DNA of 64,000 nt, taken from NCBI RefSeq assembly GCF_030065545.1, contig NZ_JASJNC010000007.1:1-64000 (forward strand). Direction: 5' to 3'. The position numbers and the translations under genes were made by a program. The stretch comes from Marinicella marina. Lineage in GTDB: Bacteria > Pseudomonadota > Gammaproteobacteria > Xanthomonadales > Marinicellaceae. Below, piece by piece: positions 38,740 through 44,541 of the stretch (positions within the stretch are counted from its first letter, which is position 1; each line of letters starts with the position of its first letter). A model generated the notes under the pieces. It was not told the origin of the DNA, did not search any database, and saw nothing but the letters and a program-made list of their open reading frames with translations.

Positions 38740-39144
38740 ATGAATATGAATGAAACCAGTATCATCCTCAAACTCAATGGTTTAATCAATTTAATCATTG
38801 GCGCTTTACTGGTTTTCATGCCCAGTCAAGTGATTGATTTCCTCAGCACCACCAAGCAAGTGCCTGAGGTAGTGGTTTTATTATTGGGTATGGCTTTGAA
38901 TTTGATTGGCATGTTGTTACTTTGGTGTGGCAATCGCGACCACCTCAGCCCAAGCTTAATCAAGGCCTTCATATTGCTTGATTTAATCTGGGTCATATTT
39001 GTTTTTGCTTTGATTTTCAGTCAAACTTGGATCACTTCAACAGTAGGCACCACCACCACAGGCTTGATAGCCATCGTGGTTGGTAGACTTGGCTGGCTGT
39101 TGTGGCATAACCACAAAGCACCAGCGAAAAGTGTGTCTCAATAA
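38740..39144 (+). CDS. Small four-span membrane protein of unknown function
   Basis: A 134-residue, very hydrophobic protein with four predicted membrane segments (about 9-32, 44-64, 76-95 and 100-120) and a polar C-terminus. No family motif recognised. It starts 9 bases after the CadC-like gene, so the two are probably co-transcribed. No clear ribosome-binding site is visible, consistent with coupling. Confidence 0.65.
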   Translation: MNMNETSIILKLNGLINLIIGALLVFMPSQVIDFLSTTKQVPEVVVLLLGMALNLIGMLLLWCGNRDHLSPSLIKAFILLDLIWVIFVFALIFSQTWITSTVGTTTTGLIAIVVGRLGWLLWHNHKAPAKSVSQ

Positions 39145-39983: not shown

Positions 39984-40013
39984 TGTTCAATGAGAACTAT
40001 TAACGCTATACTA
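39984..40013 (+). promoter_or_regulatory. Sigma-70 promoter for the lipoxygenase-like gene
   Basis: TTGTTC (39984-39989) and TATACT (40008-40013) with an 18-base spacer, about 90 bases upstream of the ATG at 40104. This is one of the better consensus matches in the window. Confidence 0.6.
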
Positions 40014-40103
40014 ATATGTATAACTAAAATCAAATCTCATTCATCACCTCATCATGTTCTTTGATCGGGGTGCAACATGTATATAACTGTATAAGGGGGA
40101 GTT

Positions 40104-42677
40104 ATGACAACAAAAAGTAATGCACAACAGGGTAATACACCGATAAGCTACGCGATTGAGGCACGCTTCAAAAAGCCGGCTGAAATCAGCTATTCAATAC
40201 CAGGCTCATTGTTATCAATTTTAAGCCTGCTGTTCATGGCAGTGCTGTCAACACTGATGTATGTGCAATTGACCGAGCCACAACAGGCTTTCTTGCCTTG
40301 GCTCAGTGACTTGTTACCATTTTTAAAACCACCAAAGACTGATTCGGCTTTGGCGACTTGGGCTTGGCTGCCATTTGCTTTTACCATTTTCGGTAGTGCG
40401 CTGGGCATGATCTTTGAGCTTTGGTTACTGCTCACTGGTCAAGCGTTCCAACAAACCAACACACCTTTTCATCGGTTCATTCGTAACATCAGGTTATTGA
40501 ACCTTGGGCCAGTGGTGGCTACTATTTTATTTTTCTTCATCTGTATATTGATTACCGATCCAAGCATGCGCCTGGTACTATTATACCTGTCAGGAGCCAT
40601 AGCTTTTGGTTTGGGCTTTGCTTTGTTTTTTAATGGCGCCCCTGGTTTTGTCTTTATAATGTTGGCTGGCCTACAAGTCACCCAAATCATTTTGGTCTTG
40701 ACCCACAGCATACCTTTTGGTGGCTCAGCGGTGGCCTATTTATTGGTGGCCCAATCGGTGCTGCAGTTAACGGCTTTACTGATTACCACAGCCACACCAT
40801 TAAAAAGTACTGGGTTTCATACTTTGAGTACCATTTCGGGTGTTTGTTTGTATGTGGCATTGGTGAAGATAACCAATGCCAGCCCAAACTTTTCACACGA
40901 TGTGGCAGTGTCCTTGCCACAGTGGTCAGTGCTTTGGTGGGGTTTTATTGTGGTTTGTTTGGCCGCTATGGTGGCCGTAGGCTATGCCTTTCCCAAAGTG
41001 TTTCAGGCTTTCAGAACGGTGTTCAGTCATGCCATTTGGACTTTACAGTACTTTGTTTTGGTCAGCGCCAAGCGCTTTCCTAAACCGTTCAACTTGAGTC
41101 AAGTTTATAACAACACCAATGACAGACCAGTTGCATCCAGACTGAAACCATATTATCAGGTCCACTCCCAGTACTTAATGAAAGATTTGAGCATCCCTGC
41201 CGATGAGGACATTGAGCGCAATGTAACGATTTTCAAAAAACTGCTGAATAAAGCGACGAAAGGCTTTAAGGCCATCGCCATGTTAGACCATGTGATTCCA
41301 CAGTCTAATGTCAATACACCGCTGGCTGATAAACAAAGGATGGCCATCTGGAGTGATGGCCGTGACTTTTGGCCGAAGTTTTTTTCCAGGAAACTTTTTG
41401 GTTACACCCTGCCCGATCGAGGCCATTTTGAAACCACACCTGAACCTGTGATCAAGGCATTTAAGGAGGGCCAATTATTGGCTTACCTGGTTGAATCAGG
41501 CGTGGGTTCGCCGTTTTTGACAGCGCGTGAAGGTGGCGGCCTCGAAGTCGACTTCAGTTATCTGGAACACTTTGAAACCAAGGCTGATTTTGAAGCCTAC
41601 GGTGGCGGGGCCCACTTTGCCATCAACAATGATCTGAAAAAGCTACAGCTAACCGCTGTGGTAGCACCTTCATCAGGCAAAGTCATATCAGCCAATCCAC
41701 ATGACCCAGAATTCAGGGCAGTTGAAGCCCAAGTGCTGGCATCCTTGTATTATGAAGTAATTAGCGGTAAACACTTGGCTGAAATCCACATGACTTATAA
41801 CTTGGTTGAAGTGACCATGCACAACGCTTTCGATGTCCAAGGCCAATGGCAACACCCGTTCCGCACTTTCATGTATTTACACTTGTTCTCGCATGAGCTG
41901 GCCGAGGAAATCACCACCGAGCATTTGGTCCAGGACGGTGCTGTGTTCTCGCAGATTTTTGCCACCACCCACGATGGCATGATTGATCATTTGAATCATA
42001 CTTATGCCAATTTTGAGTACGGTACCGATGAGAACTTTGAATACAGAAAACAGCTGATGTTGGATGATGACAATGACGTGTTACCCAACTCTGCCATCAA
42101 TTGGGAACTGAAATACGCCGAGATATGGCACAAATACACCAGCAACTTGATTGACGTCATTTATGCCGATGATGAAGCGGTGGTTAACGATAAGTACCTA
42201 CAAGATTTTCATGATGGCTTGAATCTGGTGATGCTGAAAGGCTTACCTGAACGTTATGATGACTTTAAAACCAAATCAGGTGTGGCTCGGTTTGCCTCAG
42301 ACACCATTCATCACCTGGTTATCAGACACCAGGTTTATGGCACCACCGGCATCCGAGCGGCGCTGGATCCCAGAATCAGTAAAACACAGGTACCTAAAGA
42401 CGGTTCGACCTATGCGGTTGATGACTGGCGTTCTTTGGCTTATGTGGCTTTGGCCACGGGTAAAGCCCGCTTTACTTTGTTGTTGGATGACTTCACTTAC
42501 TTGCTTGAAGGCGTTGATGAAAAGTTTGCAAAACCCATGCACCAAATCTTTAATCAGTTACAAGAAGATTTGCGCATTTTAGAGGCTGAGTGGAACACCA
42601 CTGAGGAGGAAAAGACATTCAATTATAATTATTTCAGAGCCGTACCATCGGGTTTACATACTGGCCCGGGCTACTGA
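40104..42677 (+). CDS. Multi-pass membrane protein fused to a lipoxygenase-like domain
   Basis: An 857-residue protein. Residues 1-325 contain about eight membrane segments of unknown family. Residues of about 400-857 align by eye with lipoxygenases: KKLQLTAVVAPSSGK (512-526), GKHLAEIH (555-562), HPFRTFMYLH (584-593), EHLVQDGAVF (606-615), WHKYTSNLIDVIYADDEAVV (675-694), a helix with RHQVYG (741-746), and a C-terminal YNYFRAVPSGLHTGPGY. The histidine at the second helix of the metal site is present, but the Asn-type ligand aligns with Gly and the terminal Ile is replaced by Thr plus GPGY, so iron binding may be altered or lost. A cPLA2-like phospholipase gene converges on it. Strong GGGGGAG ribosome-binding site. 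Confidence 0.6.
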   Translation: MTTKSNAQQGNTPISYAIEARFKKPAEISYSIPGSLLSILSLLFMAVLSTLMYVQLTEPQQAFLPWLSDLLPFLKPPKTDSALATWAWLPFAFTIFGSALGMIFELWLLLTGQAFQQTNTPFHRFIRNIRLLNLGPVVATILFFFICILITDPSMRLVLLYLSGAIAFGLGFALFFNGAPGFVFIMLAGLQVTQIILVLTHSIPFGGSAVAYLLVAQSVLQLTALLITTATPLKSTGFHTLSTISGVCLYVALVKITNASPNFSHDVAVSLPQWSVLWWGFIVVCLAAMVAVGYAFPKVFQAFRTVFSHAIWTLQYFVLVSAKRFPKPFNLSQVYNNTNDRPVASRLKPYYQVHSQYLMKDLSIPADEDIERNVTIFKKLLNKATKGFKAIAMLDHVIPQSNVNTPLADKQRMAIWSDGRDFWPKFFSRKLFGYTLPDRGHFETTPEPVIKAFKEGQLLAYLVESGVGSPFLTAREGGGLEVDFSYLEHFETKADFEAYGGGAHFAINNDLKKLQLTAVVAPSSGKVISANPHDPEFRAVEAQVLASLYYEVISGKHLAEIHMTYNLVEVTMHNAFDVQGQWQHPFRTFMYLHLFSHELAEEITTEHLVQDGAVFSQIFATTHDGMIDHLNHTYANFEYGTDENFEYRKQLMLDDDNDVLPNSAINWELKYAEIWHKYTSNLIDVIYADDEAVVNDKYLQDFHDGLNLVMLKGLPERYDDFKTKSGVARFASDTIHHLVIRHQVYGTTGIRAALDPRISKTQVPKDGSTYAVDDWRSLAYVALATGKARFTLLLDDFTYLLEGVDEKFAKPMHQIFNQLQEDLRILEAEWNTTEEEKTFNYNYFRAVPSGLHTGPGY

Positions 42678-42700
42678 TTCAATAGTACTTTCTATAACTA

Positions 42701-42731
42701 AAAAGCCAGCGTATCAGCTGGCTTTTTTTTG
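42701..42731. terminator. Bidirectional rho-independent terminator
   Basis: Ten-base-pair stem AAAAGCCAGC/GCTGGCTTTT (42701-42710 and 42717-42726), 6-base loop and T-run, between the convergent lipoxygenase-like and phospholipase genes. Confidence 0.93.
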
Positions 42732-42760
42732 TGATTGAACCCAAAGATTAAACAATCTTT

Positions 42761-44440
42761 TTATTTTTTCTGATACATCCACTCAAACATGGCGCGGTTG
42801 GTTATGCCATCGGGGTTGCCTTGGGTATTTTTCGATGCCACATTCCAACACGACAGGTGGGCCAACAAATTGACCTGCCTGGGGGTCAAACCCAAATCAA
42901 TCGTTTGGTAATTGGGAAAATCATTGAACAGCCAAAACTTCAGCTTCATGCCCAGCCGCACGGTGAATTTTAATTGCTTGCACCACGCTTTGACTGGGTT
43001 GTTATAAACCCACAGCATGTTGACTGCGCCAGCTTCAACGGCGTATTTCTGATTGGCCAGAACCTTCAAGCCTGGCTGATAACACAAAGCTGTACCACCG
43101 GCTTGTGCAGCTTGCCAAAGTTGCGTCAAGTAGTCATCAAAGTCTTGTTCAAGAAACACTTGGTTCGCTCTGAACACCTCATACCCTGGCTTAAGTGACT
43201 TGTGGTTTTTGTAGGGTACATAGCCATGACCTTCGGTGTAGGGTTGGTAGCCGAACAGCGGAGGCACTTGGTCATCCACTTTCACCAAGCCCAAGGCTTT
43301 GTCATAACCCAGTGCTACTTCGGTGTTTAAAAACGAGATGATGTTTTGTGTGCCCTGACGCAGCATGCTGGCCACTCCAGAGTTATCCAAATCACCACCA
43401 TCAGCAAAAGCATATTTTTTGGCTTTGTTTTGTTGTGGTTGATTGACTGGCCAATAATTGTAAACTGGCAACAGGCCATCTAACTCGGCATGTTGGGCAC
43501 TGATCACTTCGGCATAAAATGAACTGCTGATACCGGCCATGTCATGCAGCGCAAAGTGATGTTTTGGCACAGCCACTGTCTGCAGATCATCACCAGCTGC
43601 TTGTTGTTCGGTTGAATTCAAAGCAAATGAATCAACGCCACCGCCTCCAATATCTGGTGATGAAGGGTCTTGAGTTTTAAAATCAGCCATGACACCTGAA
43701 TAAAATGGCGAAAACATAAATGGCAACAGATTAAAGTCACCTTGAACCTCGTGTGGAATCATGCTGCCTAGAATGATTAAATCGGGCCGGTAGCGATCGG
43801 ATGGGAAGGTATGAAATTCATCAACAATCATCTCAGGGTTATTGGTTTTGATGTGTTGATTGAACCAATCCTCATCATAGGTGAAGTACTTGGAATCATT
43901 CCAGCCGGTGAACAGGCCATAAGGTTTGAACACATGCCTACCGATTAACCTGACCCACAGTTCATGCGCTGGCACGCCATCGGCCAACATATCCAGAGAT
44001 TCAGCCGTAAATTTCGCCACCCCCAGTCGCCCGGGTATGCGCCCCATGTTATTCGCTGGCAGGTAATCCAATGCGGTATTTTTATCACTGCCGCGGTGCT
44101 GATTCCAGGTCAATTCATTGGGTGCCAATGTGGTGACTCCCAACAATTCATCATCACTGATGTGCTCTGGGATGTATGCATACACCGTACTGGCCCAAGC
44201 CCCACCAGAAACACCCGAAATCACCGCAGTCTTATCAATCAAACCCAAATGCCGCAAGCCCCTGAGCTGACCCATGGCCGCTGATAAAGCCCTCGATCCA
44301 CCCCCAGAAAAACAAACCGCAACGGATTCGCCCTGTGGACTGACTGCTGATTTAGTTGCTGATTTGGGCCTTTGATTGGTCAGTTGATTGGTTTTATACG
44401 GAAACAGATTTACCGTATAACTGTCTTTAGATGCTGCCAT
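42761..44440 (-). CDS. cPLA2-like (patatin-superfamily) phospholipase
   Basis: A 559-residue enzyme likely to hydrolyse phospholipid acyl esters. The oxyanion element SGGGSRAL is at 45-52. The nucleophile Ser78 lies in SGVSGGAWAS, which closely matches the G-L-S-G-S-T-W context of cytosolic phospholipase A2 rather than the plain patatin G-x-S-x-G. The probable catalytic Asp347 is in FADGGDLDNSG. There is no signal peptide, so it is probably cytosolic or membrane-peripheral. A GGGGGA ribosome-binding site supports the ATG at 44440. It converges on the membrane lipoxygenase-like gene, suggesting a lipid-release and oxygenation pair; this link is inferred. Confidence 0.85.
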   Translation of the reverse strand: MAASKDSYTVNLFPYKTNQLTNQRPKSATKSAVSPQGESVAVCFSGGGSRALSAAMGQLRGLRHLGLIDKTAVISGVSGGAWASTVYAYIPEHISDDELLGVTTLAPNELTWNQHRGSDKNTALDYLPANNMGRIPGRLGVAKFTAESLDMLADGVPAHELWVRLIGRHVFKPYGLFTGWNDSKYFTYDEDWFNQHIKTNNPEMIVDEFHTFPSDRYRPDLIILGSMIPHEVQGDFNLLPFMFSPFYSGVMADFKTQDPSSPDIGGGGVDSFALNSTEQQAAGDDLQTVAVPKHHFALHDMAGISSSFYAEVISAQHAELDGLLPVYNYWPVNQPQQNKAKKYAFADGGDLDNSGVASMLRQGTQNIISFLNTEVALGYDKALGLVKVDDQVPPLFGYQPYTEGHGYVPYKNHKSLKPGYEVFRANQVFLEQDFDDYLTQLWQAAQAGGTALCYQPGLKVLANQKYAVEAGAVNMLWVYNNPVKAWCKQLKFTVRLGMKLKFWLFNDFPNYQTIDLGLTPRQVNLLAHLSCWNVASKNTQGNPDGITNRAMFEWMYQKK

Positions 44441-44541
44441 GAATCCCCCATACTGGTTTATTTATTTATCCAATGATTATACATTGATGTAAATGCCCAA
44501 TGTGATTTTAGGGAAACATTTAGACGTTTTATATACCGTGT

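Follow-up and report, generated by a model that had tools for sequence, protein, structure and literature searches.

Lipoxygenases oxidize fats in animals and plants. In animals, the phospholipase cPLA2 feeds 5-lipoxygenase, and phospholipase A2, lipoxygenase, and a membrane platform act in series. FLAP is the membrane helper of 5-lipoxygenase (PMC11011848). Bacterial lipoxygenases are rare, at less than 0.5% of sequenced species according to part of PMC6612559. Those matched by the Pfam model PF00305 include LoxA of Pseudomonas aeruginosa and proteins of Myxococcus, Cyanothece, and Enhygromyxa; LoxA is described in PMC11011848 as a periplasmic/secreted enzyme whose presumed substrates are host lipids released by a phospholipase that is itself secreted. 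The P. aeruginosa oleate-diol synthases 10S-DOX/7,10-DS also form a bacterial fatty-acid oxygenation pathway, but they have two heme-binding motifs and belong to a di-heme cytochrome c peroxidase subfamily (PMC4496055), not to the lipoxygenase fold. Here we analyzed a 64,000-nucleotide stretch of Marinicella marina DNA (assembly GCF_030065545.1, contig NZ_JASJNC010000007.1, positions 1 to 64,000; hereafter the window), in which the gene for a large membrane protein, P0001, faces the gene for a hydrolase, P0002. P0001 is a divergent, membrane-fused branch of the known lipoxygenase fold with putative lipoxygenase activity, and, judged by sequence, a branch whose members have recurrent lipase partners and whose role is likewise putative.

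An earlier, sequence-only reading of the window had placed a phospholipase and a protein with a lipoxygenase-like C-terminal half here as convergent genes. Both open reading frames (ORFs) were found where it had put them, with 83 bp between their stop ends. For the C-terminal half, the evidence came from profile-profile comparison, a bridging relative, and structure searches. When eight members of the P0001 family were compared with four bacterial PF00305 proteins, hhalign gave a probability of 96.6% (E 6.7e-10), and a profile of five canonical lipoxygenases plus the bridging protein L062 gave 95.9% (E 6.4e-9). L062 (L062:5970-7529, genome G1001) is a stand-alone protein of 520 amino acids (aa) with no membrane part. 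It was picked out by the P0001 family profile at E 1.4e-4 and itself matched PF00305 at 3.6e-18 and the bacterial lipoxygenase 8x8f at 1.3e-13. When an AlphaFold model of the domain was searched with Foldseek, the best 50 of 295 rows (E 10) were all lipoxygenases, with a 12-LOX at the top (1.6e-9). Similarly, 50 of 50 rows among the matches listed by VIA-align were lipoxygenases, and the best was human 12-LOX (Z 21.3, 360 residues, root mean square deviation 4.5). These results indicated that the likeness of the C-terminal half to lipoxygenases is more than chance, and that P0001 shares profile homology and the same fold over about 360 residues with the bacterial PF00305 enzymes.

Several results weighed against this assignment. 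The sequence-only reading had named PF00305 as the profile that the C-terminal half should match, and it failed in this respect: the model matched none of eight family members at E 10. Four domain-of-unknown-function models matched the family at E 0.18 to 7.4, with one member each. The P0001 sequence alone gave no Pfam match, and its best NCBIfam and PDB matches stood at 0.16 and 1.4; the family profile did no better in PDB, where its best match, a lipoxygenase, had E 1.3. None of these was significant. A PF00305 search of its own genome gave no matches. When the bridging L062 was left out, hhalign was weaker with three divergent lipoxygenases (31.6%, E 5e-4) and weaker still with the five canonical lipoxygenases (3.8% at E 0.011, with 330 columns aligned collinearly), which include two from one Rhodococcus species; the global alignment of this last pair failed to align. 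Thus, as far as the profiles go, the link between P0001 and the lipoxygenases leans on L062. In addition, the domain model was of moderate confidence, with a predicted local distance difference test score (pLDDT) of 63 and a predicted template modeling score of 0.64.

The residues expected to bind metal were examined in all 12 family members, window included. P0001 keeps the HP-x7-H motif of the bacterial PF00305 lipoxygenases, and the paired histidines listed in Table 1 were invariant. Departures from the canonical pattern at two positions, and probably at one more, also weighed against the assignment. First, the carboxylate of a C-terminal Ile binds iron in canonical lipoxygenases, whereas all 12 chains end GPGY at the same end point and so have a C-terminal Tyr. 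Second, in the first iron-ligand cluster (His-x3/4-His), H557-x4-H562 is invariant, but in the alignments H557 falls at the second canonical His, and the first is matched by Val552 in all 12 members; the first canonical position is probably Val, with the register in these stretches uncertain. Third, the His-x3-Asn of the second cluster, which has His or Ser variants in lipoxygenases, was absent from all 12 members in either register (H742-x3-G746 or H737-x3-R741), and the alignments leave the register between Gly746 and Arg741 unsettled. PMC6612559 gives His-x3-Asn as the pattern of this cluster and describes its Asn as essential for true lipoxygenases. In the alignment, L062 was also without the first canonical His. 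Beside the HP motif, we observed the sequence HELAEEITTEH (residues 597-607; window positions 41892-41924, plus strand), in which H597, E598, E601, E606, and H607 were found in 12 of 12 members and E602 was replaced by Gly in one. This sequence had no counterpart in four aligned lipoxygenases and may belong to a metal site that has changed.

Because of the noncanonical ligand positions, we call P0001 a divergent branch and not a proven lipoxygenase. The replaced ligands, the C-terminal Tyr, and the added HELAEEITTEH would also fit a domain that has lost dioxygenase chemistry and acts as a hydroperoxide isomerase, as a lyase, or in metal-free lipid binding; the module would then process lipids by some reaction other than lipoxygenation. 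We consider such a loss unlikely; the H-x4-H pairs (557/562 and 737/742) and the C terminus are invariant, as expected of a metal site that has been kept, albeit in an uncertain register. As a separate observation, two divergent PF00305 proteins (L043:4124-7269 in genome G310 and L044:4222-7291 in genome G223) end SPWN. The gene for each is followed by one for a protein of about 110 aa with a Tat-like start and by a lipoprotein-like gene of about 215 aa; the two small proteins of L043 had no Pfam match.

Apart from being missed by the Pfam model and having its ligands partly replaced, P0001 differs from the bacterial PF00305 lipoxygenases in its N-terminal anchor of eight predicted transmembrane helices. 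Counts of Lys plus Arg in the loops (13 versus 3) put the N and C ends of this membrane domain in the cytoplasm, and all eight alignment rows showed the same direction (5-13 versus 0-2 positive charges, with approximate helix limits). Since both ends of the eight-helix domain are on the cytoplasmic side, the lipoxygenase-fold domain is predicted to lie in the cytoplasm. A ninth model helix (residues 297-321) was weakly hydrophobic, with a best hydropathy of 1.11, and was left out of the count; if it does span the membrane, the lipoxygenase-fold domain would be outside. The whole-chain AlphaFold model was poor (pLDDT 53.6) and had no fold match in PDB below E 0.1, the best being a Mn-lipoxygenase at 0.13. 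Rhodopsin-like bundles were among the next rows, none of them below 0.1, and a rhodopsin relation was not inferred.

The sequence-only reading had also asked whether the two genes stay adjacent across genomes. The kind of neighbor is conserved and the gene itself is not: a lipase-type gene adjoins the P0001 relative in 10 of 12 loci (ORFs of at least 100 to 120 aa), but the same phospholipase is not conserved, and lipases of other families stand in for it. The partners are the cPLA2-like hydrolase of the window, a patatin, and two class 3 lipases, that is, four kinds from two superfamilies. In the Moritella-type loci (L018, L019, L058, L059, and L060), one class 3 lipase gene lies downstream in the same direction (Lipase_3 at 5.9e-16 for the L018 partner); judged by ORF lists, the pair is kept while most outer genes differ, although L058 and L059 share some. 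Downstream patatin genes were found at L020, L022, and L023 (2.5e-33, 1.4e-28, and 1.5e-29), and these patatins share 53-63% identity. At L021, the partner is an upstream class 3 lipase (7.8e-11) that showed no BLAST similarity to the Moritella lipase. L020, L021, and L022 are at contig ends, with one side partly or wholly unseen, and L022 itself is cut. In 11 genomes, patatin and class 3 lipase matches numbered 1-11 per genome, and by rough arithmetic, in which genome size served to estimate the number of genes, fewer than 1% of random genes would have such a lipase beside them. Because the partners come from two superfamilies, they were recruited at least twice, and perhaps four times; that they have two unrelated folds speaks for a module of hydrolase plus oxygenase.

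Against a fixed pairing, no adjacent lipase was found at L017 and L061, where the neighbors tested belonged to other families; L061 has a GDSL lipase about 5 kb away, and the two loci are sisters in the tree (support 1.00). Furthermore, the exact P0001/P0002 pair was found only in the window, which also has the only convergent pair; in the other nine loci the partner is co-directional. None of six partner lipases tested had an N-terminal signal-like stretch by hydropathy, and the L018 partner had one internal hydrophobic stretch. When PADLOC defense models were searched, both window proteins had no matches at E 0.1 and the two class 3 lipases tested had none, whereas the patatin partners of L020 and L023 matched phospholipase-effector models at 3.3e-12 and 3.1e-10.

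Two observations concerned other hydrolase genes near lipoxygenase-type genes. In Moritella JT01, a fragment (L019:8768-9097) with 44% identity to the class 3 lipase partner lies across the oxygenase gene from that lipase, near transposase-like ORFs, and is a possible old duplicate or scar. On two Rhodococcus qingshengii plasmids (L109:961-3993 and L110:1259-4287), a canonical lipoxygenase gene is directly 3' of an annotated acyl-ACP thioesterase. By this annotation, the Rhodococcus lipoxygenase likewise follows a gene for a fatty-acid-releasing hydrolase, of another type. The Nostoc and Pantoea plasmid lipoxygenases had no annotated lipase nearby.

The second gene of the window pair had been read as a cPLA2-like phospholipase, and this reading was borne out: the motifs SGGGSRAL, GVSGG, and DGG are present. 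In an alignment of P0002 with eight relatives, S45, G46-48, R50, S78, G79, G80, W82, D347, and G348 were invariant in nine of nine rows; the cPLA2-type catalytic Ser78/Asp347 dyad and the oxyanion glycines G46-G48 were thus present throughout. A profile built from these nine sequences matched cPLA2-delta (5ixc) in PDB at E 2.9e-11, the match covering only about 100 residues at the nucleophile; the same profile matched cPLA2 1cjy at 4e-4. The best bacterial patatin among the matches listed was weaker than cPLA2-delta, at 0.072. On the PLA2_B model PF01735, P0002 stayed below the cut-off, with 15 bits against 23, and its best relative, L098, scored 19.9. P0002 was also below the cut-off of the patatin model PF01734 (26.1 versus 27.7 bits), on which the relative L095 scored 32.9 bits; the P0002 family is therefore at the edge of that model. 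Compared to the group IV cPLA2 enzymes and the patatin clan, P0002 shares the oxyanion loop, the GXSGX elbow followed by W, and the DGG motif. It differs from group IV cPLA2 in being below both cut-offs and in the C2 domain, which had no match in the Pfam search; the catalytic motif begins at residue 45. Hydropathy revealed no signal-peptide-like or transmembrane stretch. Based on these sequence comparisons, we regard P0002 as a cPLA2-like hydrolase.

Relatives of P0002 (about 25-39% identity by BLAST) were found in the same-order genomes G031, G021, G011, G026, and G003, as well as in G364, in a single congener (G123) of 17, and on the Ruegeria pomeroyi megaplasmid. Two Sulfitobacter plasmids had shorter matches (61% of the query, 26% identity). 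In G003, about 6 kb separate the P0002 relative (L100:6698-8815) from a gene for a canonical lipoxygenase (L102:8874-10871, PF00305 at 4.1e-68), and between the two are genes for a DUF4331 protein, a GMC oxidoreductase, and a protein resembling cytochrome c. This is a candidate oxylipin-processing cluster. Within it (L102:8874-10871 and L100:1-8815), the cytochrome c-like protein has 841 aa and the DUF4331 gene is on the opposite strand. In G123, the distant P0002 relative (L098:1167-4264) is within about 1 kb of a 44% homologue of the window gene at 38740-39144.

Table 1. Positions of the features of the P0001/P0002 locus in the window
Feature	Position	Strand	Basis or remark
Ribosome-binding site of P0001, GGGGGAG	40095..40101	+	Purine-rich, few bases before ATG
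P0001, 857-aa membrane-fused lipoxygenase-fold protein	40104..42677	+	ORF; 54-61% identity to 11 relatives
N-terminal membrane domain, residues 1-330, 8 predicted transmembrane helices	40104..41093	+	Model helices, hydropathy, loop charges
Lipoxygenase-fold domain, residues 331-857	41094..42677	+	Profile-profile comparison, domain model, structure searches
H557-x4-H562	41772..41789	+	Both His invariant, 12/12
H584-P...H593	41853..41882	+	Both His invariant, 12/12; spacing of the lipoxygenase HP-x7-H motif
H737-x4-H742	42312..42329	+	Both invariant, 12/12; region of the second lipoxygenase ligand cluster
C-terminal octapeptide ending GPGY	42651..42674	+	Last residue the same, 12/12
Terminator-like stem, 11 pairs	42700..42727	.	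A run 5', T run 3'; between the convergent genes
P0002, 559-aa cPLA2/patatin-like hydrolase	42761..44440	-	ORF, family searches, alignment
DGG motif, Asp347	43394..43402	-	Alignment of P0002 relatives
GVSGG nucleophile elbow, Ser78	44201..44215	-	Alignment of P0002 relatives
SGGGSRAL glycine-rich oxyanion motif, residues 45-52	44285..44308	-	Alignment of P0002 relatives
Ribosome-binding site of P0002, GGGGGA	44444..44449	-	Purine-rich, few bases before ATG

The sequences and predictions showed the fold, the homology, a conserved catalytic dyad, a membrane anchor, and a repeated lipase neighborhood; we infer that the domain binds iron and oxygenates, and likewise which step comes first, what the substrate is, and what the product does. 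In the explanation that we favor, at about an even chance, the two enzymes form a lipid-oxidation module on the cytoplasmic side of the inner membrane. The cytosolic (phospho)lipase, acting through its Ser78/Asp347 dyad, would release a fatty acid from membrane or stored lipid, and the lipoxygenase-fold domain, anchored by its own eight helices, would take the acyl chain from the same leaflet and convert it to a hydroperoxide. The eight-helix anchor would serve P0001 as FLAP and the PLAT domain serve the lipoxygenases of animals. The predicted cytoplasmic position of the domain, together with the lack of an N-terminal signal-like stretch by hydropathy in six partner lipases, argues that the module acts on lipids of the cell itself, in contrast to secreted LoxA.

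The substrate is probably polyunsaturated fatty acids, which would be made by the cell itself where PfaA is present and taken up otherwise. PfaA (TIGR02813) was above the cut-off in three of seven genomes, namely, both Moritella genomes and G569; this survey left out the genome of L023. The other four genomes, M. marina included, had no PfaA above the cut-off, which counts against the module; several of the genomes are draft assemblies. For these four, one must assume either polyunsaturated acids supplied from outside or a different substrate.

The sequence-only reading had likened the pair to an animal-style module. In favor of this, the hydrolase neighbor recurs; in the window, however, the genes converge on a terminator-like stem, the ligand positions differ, and the genome is one of those with no PfaA above the cut-off. 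Any likeness to the animal series of cPLA2, 5-lipoxygenase, and FLAP would be one of working: platform and oxygenase are one chain in P0001, P0002 lacks a C2 domain, and no FLAP match appeared in the Pfam or PDB searches. The fullest version of the idea is a bacterial analogue of the arachidonate cascade, in which an intracellular phospholipase feeds a self-anchored lipoxygenase with a built-in FLAP and a shifted metal site made of two H-x4-H pairs to yield intracellular oxylipins, with the system spread horizontally in Proteobacteria and recruiting different lipases at least twice and perhaps four times. We offer it only tentatively and consider it doubtful.

The same evidence would also fit the reverse order, in which the oxygenase acts on intact membrane phospholipids and the neighboring lipase clips the oxidized chain during lipid editing or remodeling. 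For an oxygenase built into the membrane, esterified lipid would be the nearest substrate; the Lipase_3, patatin, and cPLA2-like partners could all serve as excision enzymes; and LoxA is reported, in a passage of PMC11011848, to oxidize membrane-bound as well as free polyunsaturated acids. The sequence gives no order of steps, and we judge the reverse order improbable, to the same degree as a loss of dioxygenase chemistry.

The 12 P0001 loci are the window, seven loci from a scan of genome contigs, and four from 79 genomes near Moritella and 94 near an Oceanospirillales metagenome-assembled genome (MAG), and their hosts are scattered proteobacteria. The named hosts in the contig scan were Moritella PE36 and JT01, Oceanospirillaceae, Oceanospirillales, and Saccharospirillaceae, and the remainder of the seven were two MAGs labeled Betaproteobacteria and Moraxellaceae; the scan works by short patterns, and members may be missed. 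Beyond its own genome, no P0001 relative was found in 200 genomes of the order (17 congeners included), 369 of the class, or 398 of the phylum (overlapping sets). This patchy spread suggests horizontal transfer. Plasmids and viruses were considered as carriers and set aside: P0001 had no match in PLSDB, and two scans of viral contigs were without a relative.

The flanks of the window pair look ordinary. On one side is what we take to be a cytochrome b561-like gene, and on the other are a cobalamin adenosyltransferase gene (PF01923) and, presumably, glycine-cleavage genes. As the sequence-only reading had noted, each gene of the pair has its own ribosome-binding site. A 33-nt direct repeat, 73% identical (window positions 39997-40029 and 42671-42703), brackets the P0001 gene alone, just 5' of the start and over the stop; it could have arisen by chance or be the scar of an old insertion. 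In the congener G118 (L101:1636-4126), the b561-like and cobalamin adenosyltransferase genes are directly adjacent without the pair. These genes differ from those of the window in order and orientation; we therefore rejected the idea that the pair simply inserted into an empty site, and rearrangement was involved.

The explanation that survives least well, and that we consider very unlikely, is that the two genes are neighbors by accident and the phospholipase has its own job: it would suit the convergent orientation and the terminator-like stem in the gap, which do not point to an operon, the 9 of 10 P0002-relative loci with no lipoxygenase in the flanks examined (flank sizes differ), and the congener G123, which has a distant P0002 relative and in which P0001 was not found, but it sits poorly with the lipase-type neighbors in 9 of the 11 other loci, with the P0002 relative inside the lipoxygenase cluster of G003, and with the congener genomes, some incomplete, of which 17 of 17 yielded no P0001 and 16 of 17 no P0002, which makes both genes patchy, with a possibly shared history.

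In searches of open-access papers, no report of a membrane-fused bacterial lipoxygenase, a lipase-lipoxygenase gene pair, or a Moritella lipoxygenase appeared among the matches listed. The pathway roles put forward by the sequence-only reading (signaling, defense, and remodeling) are guesses. Here, a branch missed by the standard model, sited in the membrane, and predicted to face the cytoplasm, with a hydrolase gene next door in most loci, points to the cell's own lipids over host lipids. The shifted arrangement of ligands would also be a metal-site variant new to lipoxygenases. The locus makes a bacterial lipase-lipoxygenase pathway directly testable and suggests an overlooked bacterial route to oxidized fats.

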